This document shows, one piece after another, positions 49,231 to 57,131 of a stretch of DNA of 64,000 bases. The position numbers and the translations under genes are program-made. A model generated the notes under the pieces. It had not been told where the DNA came from. It saw nothing but the letters and a program-made list of their open reading frames with translations, and ran no database searches. Each line of letters starts with the position of its first letter. Within the stretch, counting starts at the first letter, position 1. The stretch lies in assembly GCA_018814045.1 (NCBI GenBank), contig JAHJAR010000144.1:1-64000 (forward strand). Direction: 5' to 3'. This DNA comes from Planctomycetota bacterium. Lineage in GTDB: Bacteria; Planctomycetota; Phycisphaerae; UBA1845; Fen-1342.

Positions 49231-50167
49231 CGGCCACCTTCATCGTCAAGACAAGCTGTAAGCGGGGACCGCCCGCGCGGACCTCGCCGAGCCCCATAGG
49301 ATAGCGTCCTGCACCGCAGCGGTCAAACCCATCGCCACCCCTCTTCCGGCTCGTCCGCGTGGGCACCTCGAAGGCGGTCACAACACGCACAATCCGAGCC
49401 CGAAGCGCCAGCGAGGGATCAGGTGACGATAGCGCGTCCGTGTGCAAATCCCTCGCTGGCGCTTCGGGCTCGCTTCCAGACCGCGCTATCGGCTGCGAGT
49501 CTTGGCATCTGGCTCGTGCTACGGCCAGCCTGGCCCGCCAGCGGCGGGATTCGCGGTTCATGCCAAGGCCGGCCTGATCACCAGCCATGACTTCCGACAT
49601 CTGCTCATCCCTTTCACGAAGCGGCGAGTCGCTCCTGATACCAAGGAAGTCAGCACGTCGTTCAGCCTTGGCCGCCGCTTGACCGATCGGTTGTCGATCG
49701 GCTTCGGCGGCCGAGTTGGGGCGTTGCGTGCGCCCTTCAGTGAAGTCCTGGGCCCCCTCGACGTGGAATTCCGCCGCAGCGAGGGCTTGGGAGGCGGGTT
49801 CCACGTCGGGTTGCAGTGCCAAGCGACCGATAACCAGACACAAGCCGCCGCCTACCGTTTGCCGACCTGGTTCGGCGACATCGATGGCGGCCGCATTCCG
49901 CTCGGCATCGACCATGGCCTCAGCCGCGTTGAGGAGGTTCAACATGGCCTCTCATGCGGTTTCGGGTTCAGTTTGGTCGTAGCGCTCATGGTGCGGAGCC
50001 CCTGCTCGGGCACACTGGGCAGGGCACGCCTGCGCCTCTGGCACTCACATCACAATCCCGTTACAGTTTGTCTTTTGGCGGACGTTGGATACACCGCGCC
50101 GACAGGCTCGGGCGCCCAAGCATTGCAACGTCCGAATCCGCTTTCAAGACATGAGGAAGCTCGGAAG
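49231..50167. other. Long region without a supported gene, with a perfect inverted repeat
   Basis: These 937 bases lie between rpmB and the M24 peptidase. Long open frames cross it on both strands (about 240 codons each), but none has a recognised domain. Codon third positions seem less GC-biased than in neighbouring genes. It contains the 25-bp perfect inverted repeat at 49395-49472 and a 9-bp dyad at 50079-50087 / 50126-50134 ahead of the peptidase gene. Confidence 0.5.
49395..49472. repeat. Perfect 25-bp inverted repeat
   Basis: Arms at 49395-49419 and 49448-49472 are exact reverse complements over 25 bases, separated by 28 bases. The core reads gagcccgaagcgccagcg. A second, 9-bp dyad (49428-49436 / 49482-49490) overlaps the loop. 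It resembles a mobile repeat element or an RNA hairpin. No terminal T-run was seen. Confidence 0.85.
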
Positions 50168-51265
50168 ATGGCCAAGAAACGCAGCACAGTACCGAAACGG
50201 TATGCCGATCGCATCACGCGCGTGCGCGCCGAGATGGAGCGCCGGCACGTGGACGGGTACCTCGTCGTCAACCGCAACGACCAATACTGGCTGACCGGTT
50301 TCACGGGGGAGGATGGCGGTGTGCTGGTGAGCGCGCGCGCCGTGGTCCTGCTGACGGACGGCCGCTTCAGCGAGGCCGCCGACCGCGAGGCGCCGTTTGC
50401 TCACAAGGTGCTGCGCAAGCTGCGCTCGCCGGCCGAGACTGCGGCTGAGGTGAAACGCTGCAAGATCCAGCGGCTCGGGTACGATCCCGGCCACATGAAC
50501 GTGGGAGATTTCACGGCCCTCCGCCGACTGGCCCGGCCTGCCGCGCTGGTGGCCGCCAGCGGCATCATCCTCGGCATGCGCAAGCAGAAGGACGCTGGAG
50601 AAGTGGCGGTGATCCGCCAGGCGATCGACGTCGCCCAGCGAGCCTTCAAGAAGACCGTGAACTGGATCAGGGCCGGGCAGACGGAGCGGGAGATCGCGGC
50701 GAAGCTCGAGTACGAGATGGCCCGCCTCGGCGCGACCGGTCCCTCATTCCCCACGATCGTCGCCGTCGGGCGCAATGCGTCGCTGCCACACTGTGTTCCC
50801 GGTGAGCGCGTCGTCAGCGAGCGCGAGGGGATCCTGATCGACTGGGGGGCCCGCGTGGACTGGTATTGCAGCGACTTGACCCGCATGGTCTGGCCCGGTA
50901 GCATCCCCCGCCGATTGGCGAAAATCTACGGCATCGTCCACGAGGCCAAGGAGCGTGCCACGGCGGCGATCCGCCCGGGAATCAAGGCCGCCGACATCGA
51001 CCGCATCGCGCGCGACCATATTCGCAAGTCAGGCTACGGTAAGAACTTCAATCATAGCCTGGGGCACGGTATGGGCCTCGATATCCACGAGGCACCGATC
51101 ATGCGGAAGGTCTGCCCGGATGTGCTTCAGCCCGGCATGATCGTTACCGTTGAGCCCGGGGTATACATACCGGCCTATGGCGGGATTCGCATCGAAGACG
51201 ACGTCCTGGTGACGGAAACCGGTCACGAAGTGCTTTCTTCGCTGCCGACCGATCTGCCCCGCTGA
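50168..51265 (+). CDS. M24-family aminopeptidase (Xaa-Pro type)
   Basis: ATG 50168 gives 365 residues; upstream sequence in the same frame is not recognisable protein. The first 130 residues are a creatinase N-like domain (YADRITRVRAEMERRHVDGYLVV). The pita-bread domain has the five metal ligands: IDWGARVDWYCSDLTRMVW (two Asp), NHSLGHGMGLDIHEAP (His) and VTVEPGVYIP and RIEDDVLVTETG (two Glu). It removes N-terminal residues before proline. The gene sits 43 bases ahead of accB-accC, a linkage also known from other bacteria, where efp usually lies in between; none is present here. Confidence 0.93.
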   Translation: MAKKRSTVPKRYADRITRVRAEMERRHVDGYLVVNRNDQYWLTGFTGEDGGVLVSARAVVLLTDGRFSEAADREAPFAHKVLRKLRSPAETAAEVKRCKIQRLGYDPGHMNVGDFTALRRLARPAALVAASGIILGMRKQKDAGEVAVIRQAIDVAQRAFKKTVNWIRAGQTEREIAAKLEYEMARLGATGPSFPTIVAVGRNASLPHCVPGERVVSEREGILIDWGARVDWYCSDLTRMVWPGSIPRRLAKIYGIVHEAKERATAAIRPGIKAADIDRIARDHIRKSGYGKNFNHSLGHGMGLDIHEAPIMRKVCPDVLQPGMIVTVEPGVYIPAYGGIRIEDDVLVTETGHEVLSSLPTDLPR

Positions 51266-51308
51266 AGGTGCGGAAGCTGCTGAAACCGAACGCTGGAACG
51301 AGAATCAC

Positions 51309-51803
51309 ATGGACATCGAGCATATCAGGAACCTCGTCGAGTTGATGGTCGACAACGATCTCAGCCGTGTCGAACTCCGTGAAGGTGAGACCCACATTCT
51401 GTTGCGGCGCGGGCAGACGGTGGTGGCCGCTCCGCCGGCCAGCAGTCCATCGGCGGCGCTGACGCTGGCGAGTGCAACGGTGCCTGCCGCACTGAGGCCG
51501 GGCGAGCATTCTGCCAGCGCGGGCCCGGCAGCAACGGAGGGCACGCACGCGGCCGGCGGTGACGAGAGCTTTGTCAGGTCGCCGATGGTCGGCACGTTCT
51601 ACGGCGCTCCGGATCCGGATTCTCCGGCGTTCGTGAAGGTAGGCGACAACATTGGGCCTGAGTCGGTGGTGTGCCTGATCGAAGCGATGAAGGTCTTCAA
51701 CGAGATCAAGGCCGAGACGTCCGGCCGCGTCACGAAGGTCTTGGTCAAGAACGCCGAAGCGGTCGAGTTCGACCAACCCTTGTTCGCGATCGCATCATCC
51801 TGA
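51309..51803 (+). CDS. accB: Biotin carboxyl carrier protein of acetyl-CoA carboxylase
   Basis: The 164-residue protein has an N-terminal accB segment ([22 protein letters not shown]), an Ala/Pro-rich linker of about 45 residues, and a biotinyl domain ending with [13 protein letters not shown], where Lys128 is the biotin site. It hands carboxyl groups from AccC to the carboxyltransferase at the start of fatty-acid synthesis. accC follows 28 bases later on the same strand. Length and layout are normal. Confidence 0.97.
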
Positions 51804-51831
51804 TCCCCACTATGGCAGGAACGAGAACCGG

Positions 51832-53196
51832 ATGTTTAGCCGGATCCTAGTAGCCAACCGAGGCGAGATCGCACTGCGCGTCATTCGCGCGTGCCGGGAC
51901 ATGGGCATCGAGGCCGTGGCCGTCTACAGCCGGGCCGACGCCGATGCTGCCTATCTGAAACTGGCCCACGACGCCATTTGCATCGGTGCCGAGGCGCCCC
52001 AGCACTCTTACCTGAATCCCGCGGCGATCCTGTCCGCGGCGGAGATCACCGATGTGCAGGCGATTCACCCGGGCTACGGCTTCCTGGCCGAGAACCCGAC
52101 GTTTGCACAGATGTGCCGCGACTGCAAGATCGAGTTCATTGGCCCCAGTGCGGAATCGATGGCCATGCTGGGCAACAAGATCGCAGCCCGCAACCTGGCC
52201 CAGCGGGCGAAGGTCCCGCTCATCCCCGGTAGCAAGGGTGATGTCGCCGACGACGACGAGGCCGTCCAGATCGCGGAAGAGATCGGGTACCCGGTCATGA
52301 TCAAGGCCTCGGCCGGCGGCGGCGGCCGCGGCATGCGCGTCGCCCACAACGAAGCCTCGCTCAAGAGCAATTTCCGCAATGCGCGGGCCGAGGCCGAGGT
52401 GGCCTTCAAAGACGGCACGATGTACCTCGAGAAGTTCATCGAACGTCCGCGACACGTCGAGGTGCAACTGCTCGGCGACCACAAGGGCAACGTGGTGCAC
52501 CTGTGGGAGCGTGATTGTTCTCTCCAACGACGTCATCAGAAGCTGGTCGAAGAATCCCCGTCGCCCCACATCAGCAGCCGCACCCGCCGCAAGCTGTGCA
52601 GCGCCGCGGTCCGCCTGGCCAAGGCGGCCGGGTACTACTCGGCCGGCACGTGCGAGTTCCTCGTGGACGAGCAGGAGAACTTCTATTTCATGGAGGTTAA
52701 TGCCCGCATTCAGGTCGAGCACCCGGTCACCGAGCTGATCACGGGGGTCGATCTGGTGCAGTGGCAGATCCGCCTCGCCGATGGCGAACAACTCAAACTC
52801 CGGCAGGAAGACATCAGCCAGACGGGATCGGCGATCGAGTGCCGCATAAACGCCGAGTCGCCCGAGGATGGGTTCCGCCCCTGCCCCGGTCCGATCAAGG
52901 AGTTGTTCCTCCCCGGCGGCCCGGGCGTGCGCGTCGACACCCACACGCATTGCGGCTACGTGGTCAGCCCGTACTATGACTCCATGATCGCCAAGCTGTT
53001 GGTGCACCGCCCCAGCCGCACGGAGGCTATCCAGGTGATGCGCCGGGCGTTGGCGGAGTTCCACGTGGCCCCCATCAAGACGACCGTTCCGGTCCACCGC
53101 TTCATCTTAGACCATGCCGACTTCATCAAAGGCGACGTCGATACCGGCTTTATCGAGCGGGCGTACAACCCAGCGGCCTCTCCCAGCGGCGTTTAG
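51832..53196 (+). CDS. accC: Biotin carboxylase subunit of acetyl-CoA carboxylase
   Basis: The 454-residue ATP-grasp enzyme carboxylates biotin on AccB. Clear features are [38 protein letters not shown]-binding [12 protein letters not shown], and catalytic [15 protein letters not shown]. No frame problems or substitutions were noticed. It forms an operon with accB and the M24 gene. A strong terminator follows at 53306-53343. Confidence 0.97.
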
Positions 53197-54737: not shown

Positions 54738-54839
54738 CACGCAGCCGCCTTGCAATCGGCAGCCGAATCAGGCAGAATCGGATAGCGTAGTATCCCCCGC
54801 CGGCGAGCCAAGAGTAGCAATCATCAGGAGGAGTACACC

Positions 54840-55148
54840 TTGCAGGTGGACGGCAAGACGATTGACTTCGATAACGATGGCTTCATGATTGACCCCGCGC
54901 TGTGGGATGAGGATGTCGCCTCCGCGATTGCGAGCGAAGAAAACATCGACGGGATGTCCGATAAGCATTGGGGGGTCGTGAACTTCATCCGGGACTACTG
55001 GAAAGAGCACGATCTTGCCCCGCCTGTACGCCTGATTTGCACGGAAGTGGGCGTGAGCGTGCGTGAGATATACAAACTGTTCACGTCGGGGCCTGCCCGC
55101 GGCGCCTGCCGAGTCGCCGGCCTGCCGAAGCCCGATGGTTGCGTGTAG
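54840..55148 (+). CDS. dsrC: DsrC-type sulfur-carrier protein with two C-terminal cysteines
   Basis: The 102-residue protein starts at a TTG (54840) with GGAGG-rich upstream sequence. It matches the DsrC/TusE family (WGVVNFIRDYWKEHDLAPP, CTEVGVSVREIYKLF). The ending ACRVAGLPKPDGCV keeps both conserved cysteines, Cys90 and the penultimate Cys101. TusE has only the last, so this is a DsrC-like carrier able to form the trisulfide or disulfide used in sulfite reduction. It is directly followed by a NarI-like cytochrome and a DsrK-like iron-sulfur protein. No dsrAB is in this window. Confidence 0.93.
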   Translation: MQVDGKTIDFDNDGFMIDPALWDEDVASAIASEENIDGMSDKHWGVVNFIRDYWKEHDLAPPVRLICTEVGVSVREIYKLFTSGPARGACRVAGLPKPDGCV

Positions 55149-55205
55149 AGCGCCCGTCACCCCGCCGAAGGCCGGGGCGTCTCTCGCAAACGGGAGCAGA
55201 TCACT

Positions 55206-55835
55206 TTGCTGATTGCGGCGAGGATATTCGTGGCGCTGGGCGTCTTGTGGGCGGCTGGCGCGCTGGCGTGGCAGGTGCTTGCCGCGCGGGGCGGGGGACG
55301 CCGGGACTACAGCCAACGGGCGGGTGACCCGAGCCGGGGGATACTGTACAACTTCACGATTGCAATGCAGCCGGCACACAAGGAGTCGGTGAAGAACCAC
55401 CCGATCGAGTTCGCCACTGGCCTGGTGCTGCACGCCGGCGTCCTGACCACGCTGGTCGGCGTAGTGCTGTTGCTCGTCTGGCCGTCCGGGGGGCTGTGGC
55501 TGTTGGCCTTGATGCGTCCGCTCGCGGCGCTGGCATTGCTGGCAGGACTCTGCCTGCTGGTGCGGCGTGTCTGGTCGTTGACGTTGCGCGCCATGAGTGT
55601 GGGCGATGACTACCTGGCCATAGCTGCTTGTTGTGGGCTGCTGGCGTGGGTAGTCGCGGGGCAGCTCGGTGGGCAGAACCAGCCCGGCTTCCTGATCTAC
55701 GCTGGCCTGCTGCTGCTCTACCTGCCACTGGGCAAGCTCAGGCACGCGGTGTTCTTCTTCGTGGCGCGGGCAGATCTCGGGCGACGACTCGGCTATCGCG
55801 GCGTCTATCCGCCGGCGCCGGCAGAAACGGAGTGA
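55206..55835 (+). CDS. NarI/DsrM-like membrane cytochrome subunit
   Basis: A TTG at 55206 with GGGAG upstream gives 209 residues. Five predicted transmembrane helices are seen (for example IFVALGVLWAAGALAWQVL and VLHAGVLTTLVGVVLLLV). Histidines His58, His65, His76 and His180 (KLRHAVFFF) are candidates for haem b ligation, as in NarI, DsrM and TmcC. It probably passes electrons between the quinone pool and the following iron-sulfur subunit. It is shorter than most DsrM proteins. The gene for the partner starts four bases downstream. Confidence 0.8.
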   Translation: MLIAARIFVALGVLWAAGALAWQVLAARGGGRRDYSQRAGDPSRGILYNFTIAMQPAHKESVKNHPIEFATGLVLHAGVLTTLVGVVLLLVWPSGGLWLLALMRPLAALALLAGLCLLVRRVWSLTLRAMSVGDDYLAIAACCGLLAWVVAGQLGGQNQPGFLIYAGLLLLYLPLGKLRHAVFFFVARADLGRRLGYRGVYPPAPAETE

Positions 55836-55838
55836 TGG

Positions 55839-57131
55839 ATGGCGGACGCGGACGTGAGCCAGACTCTCGCAACAGCCCGTGCGGCGCTGGCGCGCTCCGC
55901 CCACGGTCTGGCCGCGTACCATCTCAATGCGTGTGTGAAGTGCGGGCTCTGCGCGGAAACCTGTCACATCTACAAGGCCCAGCCCGAAGTTCAGAACCAC
56001 CCAGGGGTGAAAGCCGCGCAGGTCATCAATCACTATCGACGCTATCACACGTTCCTCGGGCGGGTGCTGCCGCGGCTGGTCGGGGCCAAGGAGCTGAACC
56101 CCGCTACGCTCGACGAGTTGGTCGAGACCGTCTATGGGCGCTGCACCGCGTGCGGCCGGTGCAGCTTGCACTGCTCAATCGGGTTGGACGTCGCGGCGGT
56201 CATTCGGACCGGCCGCAACATTCTGGCGTCGATCGGCAAAGTGCCGGAGGGCTTGCAGCGCACCGTCGACAACCAACTCAAAACCGGCAACCAGATGGCC
56301 ATTCCCCAGGACGAGCTCATCTCCACCGCCGCATGGCTGTCCGACGATCTGAAGCTGGAGATGAGCGACGAAGCCGTCAAGGTGCGTGTGGACGAAAAGG
56401 CGAGCCGCGTGCTCTACCTCATCAACCCACGCGAGGTGAAGTTTTTCCCGCTGTCGCTGATGGCCGCGGCGGGCGTCTTCCACAAGGCGGGTGAGAGTTG
56501 GACCATCTCCAGCAAGTTCTACGACGTCACCAACTATGGCTTCTACTCCGGCGATGACGAGTCGGCGGAGGAACTCACGCGGCGCGTCGTCGAGGAAGCC
56601 GAAGTACTGGGCGCAGAAGAGATCATCCTGTCAGAGTGCGGGCATGGCTTCCGTTCGTTCCGCTGGGAAGGGCCGAATTGGATACGGCGCGAGTACCCTC
56701 TCCCGATGCGCAGCATGCTCGAGCTGCTCGAAGAGTATCTCGCCAGCGGGCGCATCAAGGTCGATCCGGAAAAGAACACCGAGCGCGTCACACTCCACGA
56801 TCCGTGCAACCTCGTGCGCTGGGGCGGCGTGAGTGAGCCGCAACGCCGCATTCTGAAGCAGGTCGTGACCGACTTCGTCGAAATGACGCCCAACCGCAAA
56901 GACAATTACTGCTGCGGCGGGGGCGGCGGCATGCTGTCGATGAGTGAATATGGCGATCGCCGGGTCGCTTCGGGCGCGATCAAGGCCGAGCAGATACGCG
57001 CGACCGAGGCCAAGATCGTCGCCACGCCATGCCACAACTGCGCCGATCAATTGATCGAGCTGTCGAAGAAATACAAGCTGGGGGTCGAGATCCAGGCAGT
57101 GGTGGAACTGGTGTACAACGCGCTGGTGTAG
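55839..57131 (+). CDS. DsrK/HdrD-like iron-sulfur oxidoreductase subunit
   Basis: The 430-residue protein has two 4Fe-4S clusters (CVKCGLCAETC, residues 32-42; CTACGRCSLHC, 102-112) and a CCG domain at the C terminus: HDPCNLVRWGG (Cys323), YCCGGGGGML (Cys358-359) and TPCHNC (Cys398, Cys401), matching the noncubane cluster pattern of DsrK and HdrD. An earlier SECGHGFR is a weak first CCG half. It likely reduces the cysteine pair of DsrC, taking electrons from the NarI-like subunit. The three genes have almost no space between them. Confidence 0.9.
   Translation: MADADVSQTLATARAALARSAHGLAAYHLNACVKCGLCAETCHIYKAQPEVQNHPGVKAAQVINHYRRYHTFLGRVLPRLVGAKELNPATLDELVETVYGRCTACGRCSLHCSIGLDVAAVIRTGRNILASIGKVPEGLQRTVDNQLKTGNQMAIPQDELISTAAWLSDDLKLEMSDEAVKVRVDEKASRVLYLINPREVKFFPLSLMAAAGVFHKAGESWTISSKFYDVTNYGFYSGDDESAEELTRRVVEEAEVLGAEEIILSECGHGFRSFRWEGPNWIRREYPLPMRSMLELLEEYLASGRIKVDPEKNTERVTLHDPCNLVRWGGVSEPQRRILKQVVTDFVEMTPNRKDNYCCGGGGGMLSMSEYGDRRVASGAIKAEQIRATEAKIVATPCHNCADQLIELSKKYKLGVEIQAVVELVYNALV

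Follow-up and report, generated by a model that had tools for sequence, protein, structure and literature searches.

DsrC and DsrMK are usually taken as marks of sulfite or sulfate respiration or of sulfur oxidation, and the question raised here is what such proteins do in a planctomycete in whose genome no sulfite reductase is found. The locus concerned is an operon of dsrC followed by dsrM-like and dsrK-like genes on contig JAHJAR010000144.1 of assembly GCA_018814045.1 (Planctomycetota; Phycisphaerae; UBA1845; Fen-1342), of which positions 1 to 64,000 of the forward strand were analysed and are called the window below. The genome carrying it (G000) is a metagenome-assembled genome (MAG) of 5.5 Mb, 94.8% complete and 7.35% contaminated. 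A preliminary description, made from the window's sequence alone, had placed three open reading frames (ORFs) on the forward strand at this locus, all of which are present where it located them (Table 1), and had taken them for a minimal three-gene set. Comparison with related loci revealed a conserved four-gene module, made up of genes for a cysteine desulfurase (csd), DsrC and a two-subunit membrane reductase, and three of its genes lie in the window. The module is real and conserved, in part as had been guessed; its novel component is the dedicated cysteine desulfurase, which the preliminary description overlooked and whose gene lies on another contig in this genome.

Conserved linkage of a cysteine desulfurase gene with dsrC and dsrMK-like genes

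In the four loci closest to that of the window (G050, G272, G099 and G012), a gene for a class V aminotransferase adjoins dsrC or dsrK, and the two of these aminotransferases that were scanned belong to the cysteine desulfurase family TIGR01977 (418 and 464 bits against a cut-off of 377). Five DsrKs were then aligned and scanned against 84,980 named genomes, a search that yielded 302 relatives, the best 80 of which, by similarity to the planctomycete DsrKs, were taken as cassette loci; their ORFs were called by a simple purpose-written script, not by a gene finder. These loci belong to Bacteroidota (44), Planctomycetota (11), Acidobacteriota (7), Zixibacteria (4), CSSED10-310 (2), Ignavibacteriota (2) and, by label, Gemmatimonadota, Coatesbacteria and Eisenbacteria (one each), with seven lacking a phylum; at least nine phyla are represented overall. 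Beside the 80 dsrK genes, dsrC was found in 72 loci, dsrM in 72 and csd in 65, and neither dsrA nor dsrB was found within any of the 80. Clustering of the ORFs gave four conserved families (80, 71, 70 and 63 loci), and the next clusters consisted of apparent antisense ORFs of those same genes, followed by a set confined to ten Bacteroidota loci. For genome sizes near 4 Mb and loci no longer than 17 kb, we estimate that any one gene would turn up by chance in far fewer than one of the 80 loci. The position of csd is not frozen into one order: 36 loci have the gene downstream in the same orientation, 17 downstream and convergent, and 7 upstream in the same orientation.

Loci that seemed to lack a partner were followed into the rest of their genomes. 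Among the 15 genomes with csd-less loci, 13 encode a strong csd elsewhere, and all eight genomes whose loci have no full dsrC contain a DsrC-family match. Five of these eight matches were read, three having both redox cysteines and two (G414 and G446) lacking CysB; the other three are 73-79% identical to the window DsrC, and one, in G403, equals the DsrC of G050. Searches by tblastn of 12 loci seemingly without dsrC, dsrM or csd found none in which the ORF is broken by a selenocysteine codon. Contig ends truncate several of these loci; in L135 and L138 there is space enough for a dsrM, and none was detected.

Further neighbours, named from their sequences, were noticed in smaller sets of loci. 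The ten Bacteroidota loci (L155, L169, L175-L177, L180, L196-L198 and L202) share a neighbour resembling a cyclic-nucleotide-type regulator, and in five of them (L177, L196-L198 and L202) HdrA-like and other HdrABC-like ORFs lie downstream. A cysteine synthase-like gene is convergent with csd in L131 (14787-17273) and L116 (G011:C54, 2223-4428), and a related ORF occurs in four of the 80 loci (L131, L138, L167 and L190).

The csd of the window's genome exceeds the TIGR01977 cut-off (422 against 377 bits), contains the motif TRTGLHCAP with the active-site cysteine, and is 77% identical to the csd of G050; the catalytic cysteine (C349) is present in 63 of 63 aligned rows. For the csd tree, internal stops read through by tblastn were set to X; such a stop is present in G011b at least. 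All 66 linked csds fall in one branch of this tree (73 rows, SH-aLRT support 96), together with five csds from further genomes that encode DsrC and one whose genome gave no DsrC match. The window-genome csd falls inside this branch, next to that of L130. Within the phylum DsrC is uncommon, being encoded by 14 of the 392 genomes drawn, but of the 11 whose csd homologues score highest (at least 355 bits, a cut-off chosen after viewing the list) 10 have it (Fisher p 5e-16, a value overstated by kinship). A mirror-tree comparison of DsrK and csd distances gave a correlation of 0.93 over 57 loci, which has no species-tree control and is not leaned on. The csd of G000 is an additional enzyme, because the genome also encodes a separate housekeeping IscS that exceeds both cut-offs, as well as a NifS-SelD fusion and a paralogue within TIGR01977. 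The fusion joins a NifS-type desulfurase to SelD in a single 787-aa frame (G000:C2:1424-3787), and the paralogue (G000:C22:4822-7165) lies directly upstream of a selD with an in-frame TGA, probably encoding selenocysteine.

Search for sulfite reductase genes

The domain PF01077 (NIR_SIR) had no match in G000, compared with matches in 11 of 14 control genomes; the genome therefore yielded no dsrAB and no known assimilatory sulfite reductase of the siroheme type. The preliminary description had named dsrAB elsewhere in the genome, with ordinary sulfite-reducing neighbours, as one outcome that would refute it, and this search did not produce it. Among 50 of the 80 cassette genomes in which dsrA (TIGR02064) was sought, none had a match over the cut-off, which an added control, G169, did exceed; weak matches below it occurred in 2 of these 50 and in 8 of the 14 control genomes. 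NIR_SIR was present in three of 12 DsrC-bearing genomes of the phylum (G124, G139 and G169), and no cassette-type DsrK was found in these three. With no dsrAB in the genome, the independent thiol/disulfide circuit suggested in the preliminary description is a sensible reading, and csd gives that circuit a likely substrate and turns it into a testable reaction.

A different arrangement was observed in G011, which has no NIR_SIR match: locus L037 (G011:C15, 4850-12646) carries a dsrMKJOP-like cluster with a tandem protein of two DsrC domains and two back-to-back DsrK homologues.

Properties and phylogeny of the cassette proteins

The window DsrC, the one copy in G000, belongs to its family by both Pfam (PF04358, E 1.5e-33) and NCBIfam (TIGR03342, 107 bits; cut-off 53.5), and solved DsrC structures among its PDB sequence matches align along its full length. 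Both redox cysteines that had been noted at the outset, C90 (CysB) and C101 (CysA), are present, and they are kept in 73 of 73 cassette DsrC rows. The C-terminus reads PKPDGCV in 71 of these rows and PKPEGCV in the remaining two, position 99 thus being Asp or Glu, whereas three genomes with dsrAB have a DsrC ending in PKPTGCV, as does a single DsrC from each of G011, G019 and G192. PKPTGCV, with Thr at this position, is likewise read in three PDB DsrCs, those among eight matches for which the alignment was printed. To judge from these sequences, an acidic residue two positions before CysA may mark the loss of the DsrAB partner. The third cysteine, C67, conserved in 73 of 73 cassette rows, was considered as a cassette-specific mark and dropped, as the same six comparison proteins, three of three from dsrAB-bearing genomes and those of G011, G019 and G192, have it too.

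The DsrK-like protein contains the Pfam domains Fer4_8 (two 4Fe-4S motifs) and CCG, and the cluster cysteines are complete in 81 of 81 cassette DsrK rows. Its NCBIfam scores were 285 bits for HmcF, 277 for TmcB and, lowest of the three, 241 for DsrK, none reaching the curated equivalog cut-off (HmcF NF045711, 750; TmcB NF045724, 735; DsrK NF045796, 400 bits). The HmcF or TmcB model was likewise preferred by six more cassette DsrKs from several phyla, among scores obtained for 16 homologues and the window's protein. Among PDB sequences the sole match was Mycobacterium smegmatis EtfD (9ojn). The DsrK tree, built from 59 homologues without true HmcF, TmcB or HdrD sequences, places the 40 cassette proteins on one side of a branch with a support of 94; beside them is a group of six in-phylum homologues, the four or five scanned scoring best with HmcF and TmcB, and 13 DsrK-type homologues stand apart with a support of 99. 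The window DsrK pairs with that of L130 (support 82). On the strength of this placement and of the model preference, the cassette reductase appears to be a sister lineage of HmcF/TmcB-like proteins and not DsrK itself, as judged from a tree without true HmcF or TmcB. The match to DsrMK proposed in the preliminary description therefore stands as regards a quinone-type membrane cytochrome and a CCG iron-sulfur reductase, but not as regards DsrMK proper, the equivalog cut-offs having been failed and the tree showing a separate lineage; the other refuting outcome it had named, a grouping with an unrelated oxidoreductase, was not seen for the DsrK-like subunit in that same tree. No DsrK match at E 1e-40 was found on plasmids.

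Two side observations were made. The HmcF/TmcB-like DsrK homologues of L074, L075, L076 and L078 are 585-597 aa long, with a C-terminal extension of about 150 aa. L130, the closest relative in both DsrK and csd, is labelled Gemmatimonadota and nests among Phycisphaerales in both trees, pointing to lateral transfer or a mislabelled bin.

The DsrM-like protein had no Pfam match and weak NCBIfam scores (HmcE, 35 bits, below the cut-off; TmcC, 20.6 bits). Its AlphaFold2 model (pLDDT 92.5) had NarI chains as its eight best PDB structure matches (Z 11.2-11.6), followed by EtfD in ninth place (Z 8.2) and others at 7.3 or less; this comparison argues with moderate strength for a NarI fold, the fold being helical. 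Over 75 rows, H76 is kept in 72 and H180 in 73, the rest being gaps, and H65 in 68, with Tyr in four and gaps in three. Both membrane subunits had been called short; against model lengths of 218-226 and 430-457, respectively, their sizes (Table 1) are ordinary for these families.

Gene organization of the locus

The coordinates of the four genes and of a likely ribosome-binding site are collected in Table 1. The gap between dsrC and dsrM is 57 nt and that between dsrM and dsrK is 3 nt.

Table 1. Position and properties of the cassette genes of the window's genome (window coordinates unless a contig is given).
Feature	Position	Strand	Properties
dsrC	54840-55148	+	102 aa; CysB C90, CysA C101; C-terminus PKPDGCV; start codon TTG
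Likely ribosome-binding site of dsrC	54826..54833	+	AGGAGGAG; 6 nt 5' of the TTG start
dsrM-like, membrane cytochrome subunit	55206-55835	+	209 aa; predicted NarI fold; H65, H76 and H180 conserved
dsrK-like, iron-sulfur reductase subunit	55839-57131	+	430 aa; two 4Fe-4S motifs and CCG cluster
csd	G000:C182:14-1225		At contig end, on a contig other than that of dsrCMK

On the 5' side of the module (window 49442-53196) lie genes that, named from their sequences, resemble creatinase/aminopeptidase P, biotin carboxyl carrier protein and biotin carboxylase, with no visible link to sulfur.

Proposed mechanism and alternative interpretations

The four genes, their linkage and co-occurrence, the conserved active-site residues and the absence of DsrAB are best explained by a cysteine-sulfur reduction cycle run by csd, DsrC and the DsrMK-like reductase, to which we assign a probability of about 0.5. 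In this cycle, csd would take sulfur from L-cysteine, leaving alanine, and would pass it as a persulfide onto CysA of the C-terminal arm of DsrC; attack by CysB would then release sulfide, with DsrC left as the disulfide (or trisulfide). DsrC would be re-reduced at the CCG cluster of the DsrK-like subunit by menaquinol electrons delivered through the DsrM-like cytochrome, the net reaction being cysteine + quinol to alanine + sulfide + quinone. Such chemistry would be that of DsrC and DsrMK, with cysteine replacing sulfite and csd taking the role of DsrAB. That this csd feeds this DsrC is our inference, as are the identity of the quinone, the way in which the electrons run and any gain in energy.

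For every step there is a precedent. In vitro, IscS and cysteine are reported to persulfurate Allochromatium vinosum DsrC at CysA, after which the second DsrC cysteine enters a disulfide, the electrons presumably being supplied by DsrMKJOP (PMC3397948). Reduction of the DsrC trisulfide by menaquinol through DsrMKJOP, coupled to proton translocation, is described in a 2026 review (PMC13232883), and DsrM is listed as a di-haem cytochrome b in a review of NrfD-type subunits (PMC8076601).

Some observations weigh against the proposed cycle. In the window's own genome csd is unlinked to dsrC, and the csd family is close to the selenocysteine lyase SclA. No strong csd was found in the genome of L138, which has a cassette DsrK and dsrC, and none in the small genome of L206. 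Of the four haem histidines of NarI, at most three are kept in the DsrM-like subunit, and its haem content is unsure. The cassette has no P-subunit; therefore any energy gain would need a NarI-type redox loop. The cysteine couple lies at about -0.1 V, as calculated from formation energies, close to menaquinone, and low sulfide would therefore matter.

ALTERNATIVES: the same genes admit other readings. They could serve biosynthetic supply, with csd and DsrC relaying sulfur, in the manner of TusE, to iron-sulfur clusters, tRNA or cofactors and with membrane subunits that do no more than keep DsrC reduced, delivering sulfide and not sulfane sulfur. Such use would suit a genome without a NIR_SIR sulfite reductase, in which sulfide is needed from elsewhere, and it resembles the supply of the DsrC homologue TusE of Escherichia coli from IscS via TusA and TusBCD, as set out in PMC3397948. 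Since, however, a housekeeping IscS is present and no biosynthetic gene is conserved across the 80 loci, this reading is rather unlikely. CysB, which E. coli TusE is not known to possess, is moreover invariant in the cassette DsrCs. The electrons might instead run from DsrC thiols through the DsrMK-like subunits to quinone, so that the module would make sulfane sulfur or a disulfide for use elsewhere; direction is not given by sequence alone, and DsrMK is described as running in reverse in sulfur oxidisers (PMC10504309). Sulfur supplied by a desulfurase is, however, already zero-valent and needs electrons, and the loci conserve no sulfur-oxidation gene, which makes the oxidative direction unlikely. 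Distinctly unlikely, too, is a role in detoxification or redox buffering, in which excess cysteine or protein persulfides would be removed at the expense of quinol without any part in growth yield: its chemistry is the same as that of the proposed cycle and the cassette genomes come mostly from anaerobes by record title, but a membrane quinol link is costly for that purpose and no stress genes are conserved beside the module.

The proximity of csd to SclA within TIGR01977 raises a selenium reading, in which csd would be a selenocysteine lyase and the module would handle selenide or selenyl-DsrC. Sought in 32 of the 80 cassette genomes and five genomes of the phylum, including G000, selD was over the cut-off in 31 of 37, which is nevertheless close to the phylum baseline of 136 of 199; four-gene cassettes occur without selD over the cut-off in the genomes of G099, L150 and L192, and the selD-neighbouring csd paralogue of G000 (C22) falls outside the cassette branch, so that the selenium reading is not favoured and appears very improbable. 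An ordinary sulfite reducer, its dsrAB having escaped assembly, would be compatible with a MAG at this level of completeness. It is nearly excluded by the lack of any NIR_SIR match in the genome itself, by the lack of dsrA over the cut-off in all 50 cassette genomes searched, several of them single chromosomes by title (L130, L131, L133, L146 and L152), and by the position of the cassette DsrK in a lineage other than that of the DsrK-type homologues.

Relation to known systems and significance

The cassette shares with DsrC and DsrMK or DsrMKJOP a two-cysteine DsrC, a NarI-like membrane subunit and a CCG iron-sulfur subunit. It differs from them in the absence of DsrAB from the genome, in a DsrK below the cut-off and in a separate lineage, in the linked cysteine desulfurase, and in a DsrC arm reading PKP[D/E]GCV instead of PKPTGCV. 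HmcEF and TmcBC of sulfate reducers give the best NCBIfam scores for both membrane subunits; the cassette, however, stays far below their equivalog cut-offs, has no cytochrome c subunits in its conserved set and is paired with dsrC and csd. Like the TusE relay (IscS-TusA-TusBCD-TusE), it would have a DsrC-family protein ultimately fed by a cysteine desulfurase, but it keeps both cysteines and has a membrane reductase, and TusA, TusBCD and MnmA are not conserved in the loci. EtfD of M. smegmatis combines NarI-like and CCG iron-sulfur parts, in that case in one fused protein, and its partner is the electron-transfer flavoprotein, not DsrC. The window-genome csd scores as a TIGR01977 cysteine desulfurase; unlike SclA, it scores below the SclA cut-off (315 against 525 bits) and is tied to dsrC-dsrMK rather than to selD.

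No description of a cysteine desulfurase together with dsrC and dsrMK was found in the open-access literature, subscription journals being outside the scope of this search, and novelty is provisional. The closest precedents are DsrMK-only lineages, in some of which no DsrAB was identified (PMC10504309), and a syntroph reported to express dsrC, asrAB and a cysteine desulfurase (PMC10579422). In the text consulted of the cockroach paper to which the Odoribacter record traces by isolate name, DsrC is mentioned for Desulfobacterota only (PMC10266427).

Taken further, the csd-DsrC-DsrMK cycle could represent a widespread and undescribed anaerobic respiration, an extension that we offer tentatively. 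Cysteine would be the electron acceptor, csd would charge DsrC and the DsrMK-like quinol reductase would turn it over, with alanine and sulfide as products and a NarI-type redox loop conserving energy, in organisms that lack dissimilatory sulfite reductase, among them Bacteroidota, Planctomycetota, Acidobacteriota and Zixibacteria. Spread over so many phyla and without a dsrA match over the cut-off in any of the 50 genomes searched, the cassette would end the annotation of such organisms as sulfite or sulfur respirers. It would also show DsrC to be a general protein-thiol electron acceptor independent of DsrAB, would offer uncultured anaerobes a quinol-linked route from cysteine to sulfide, and would bear on the evolution of DsrC and DsrMK before or apart from DsrAB.

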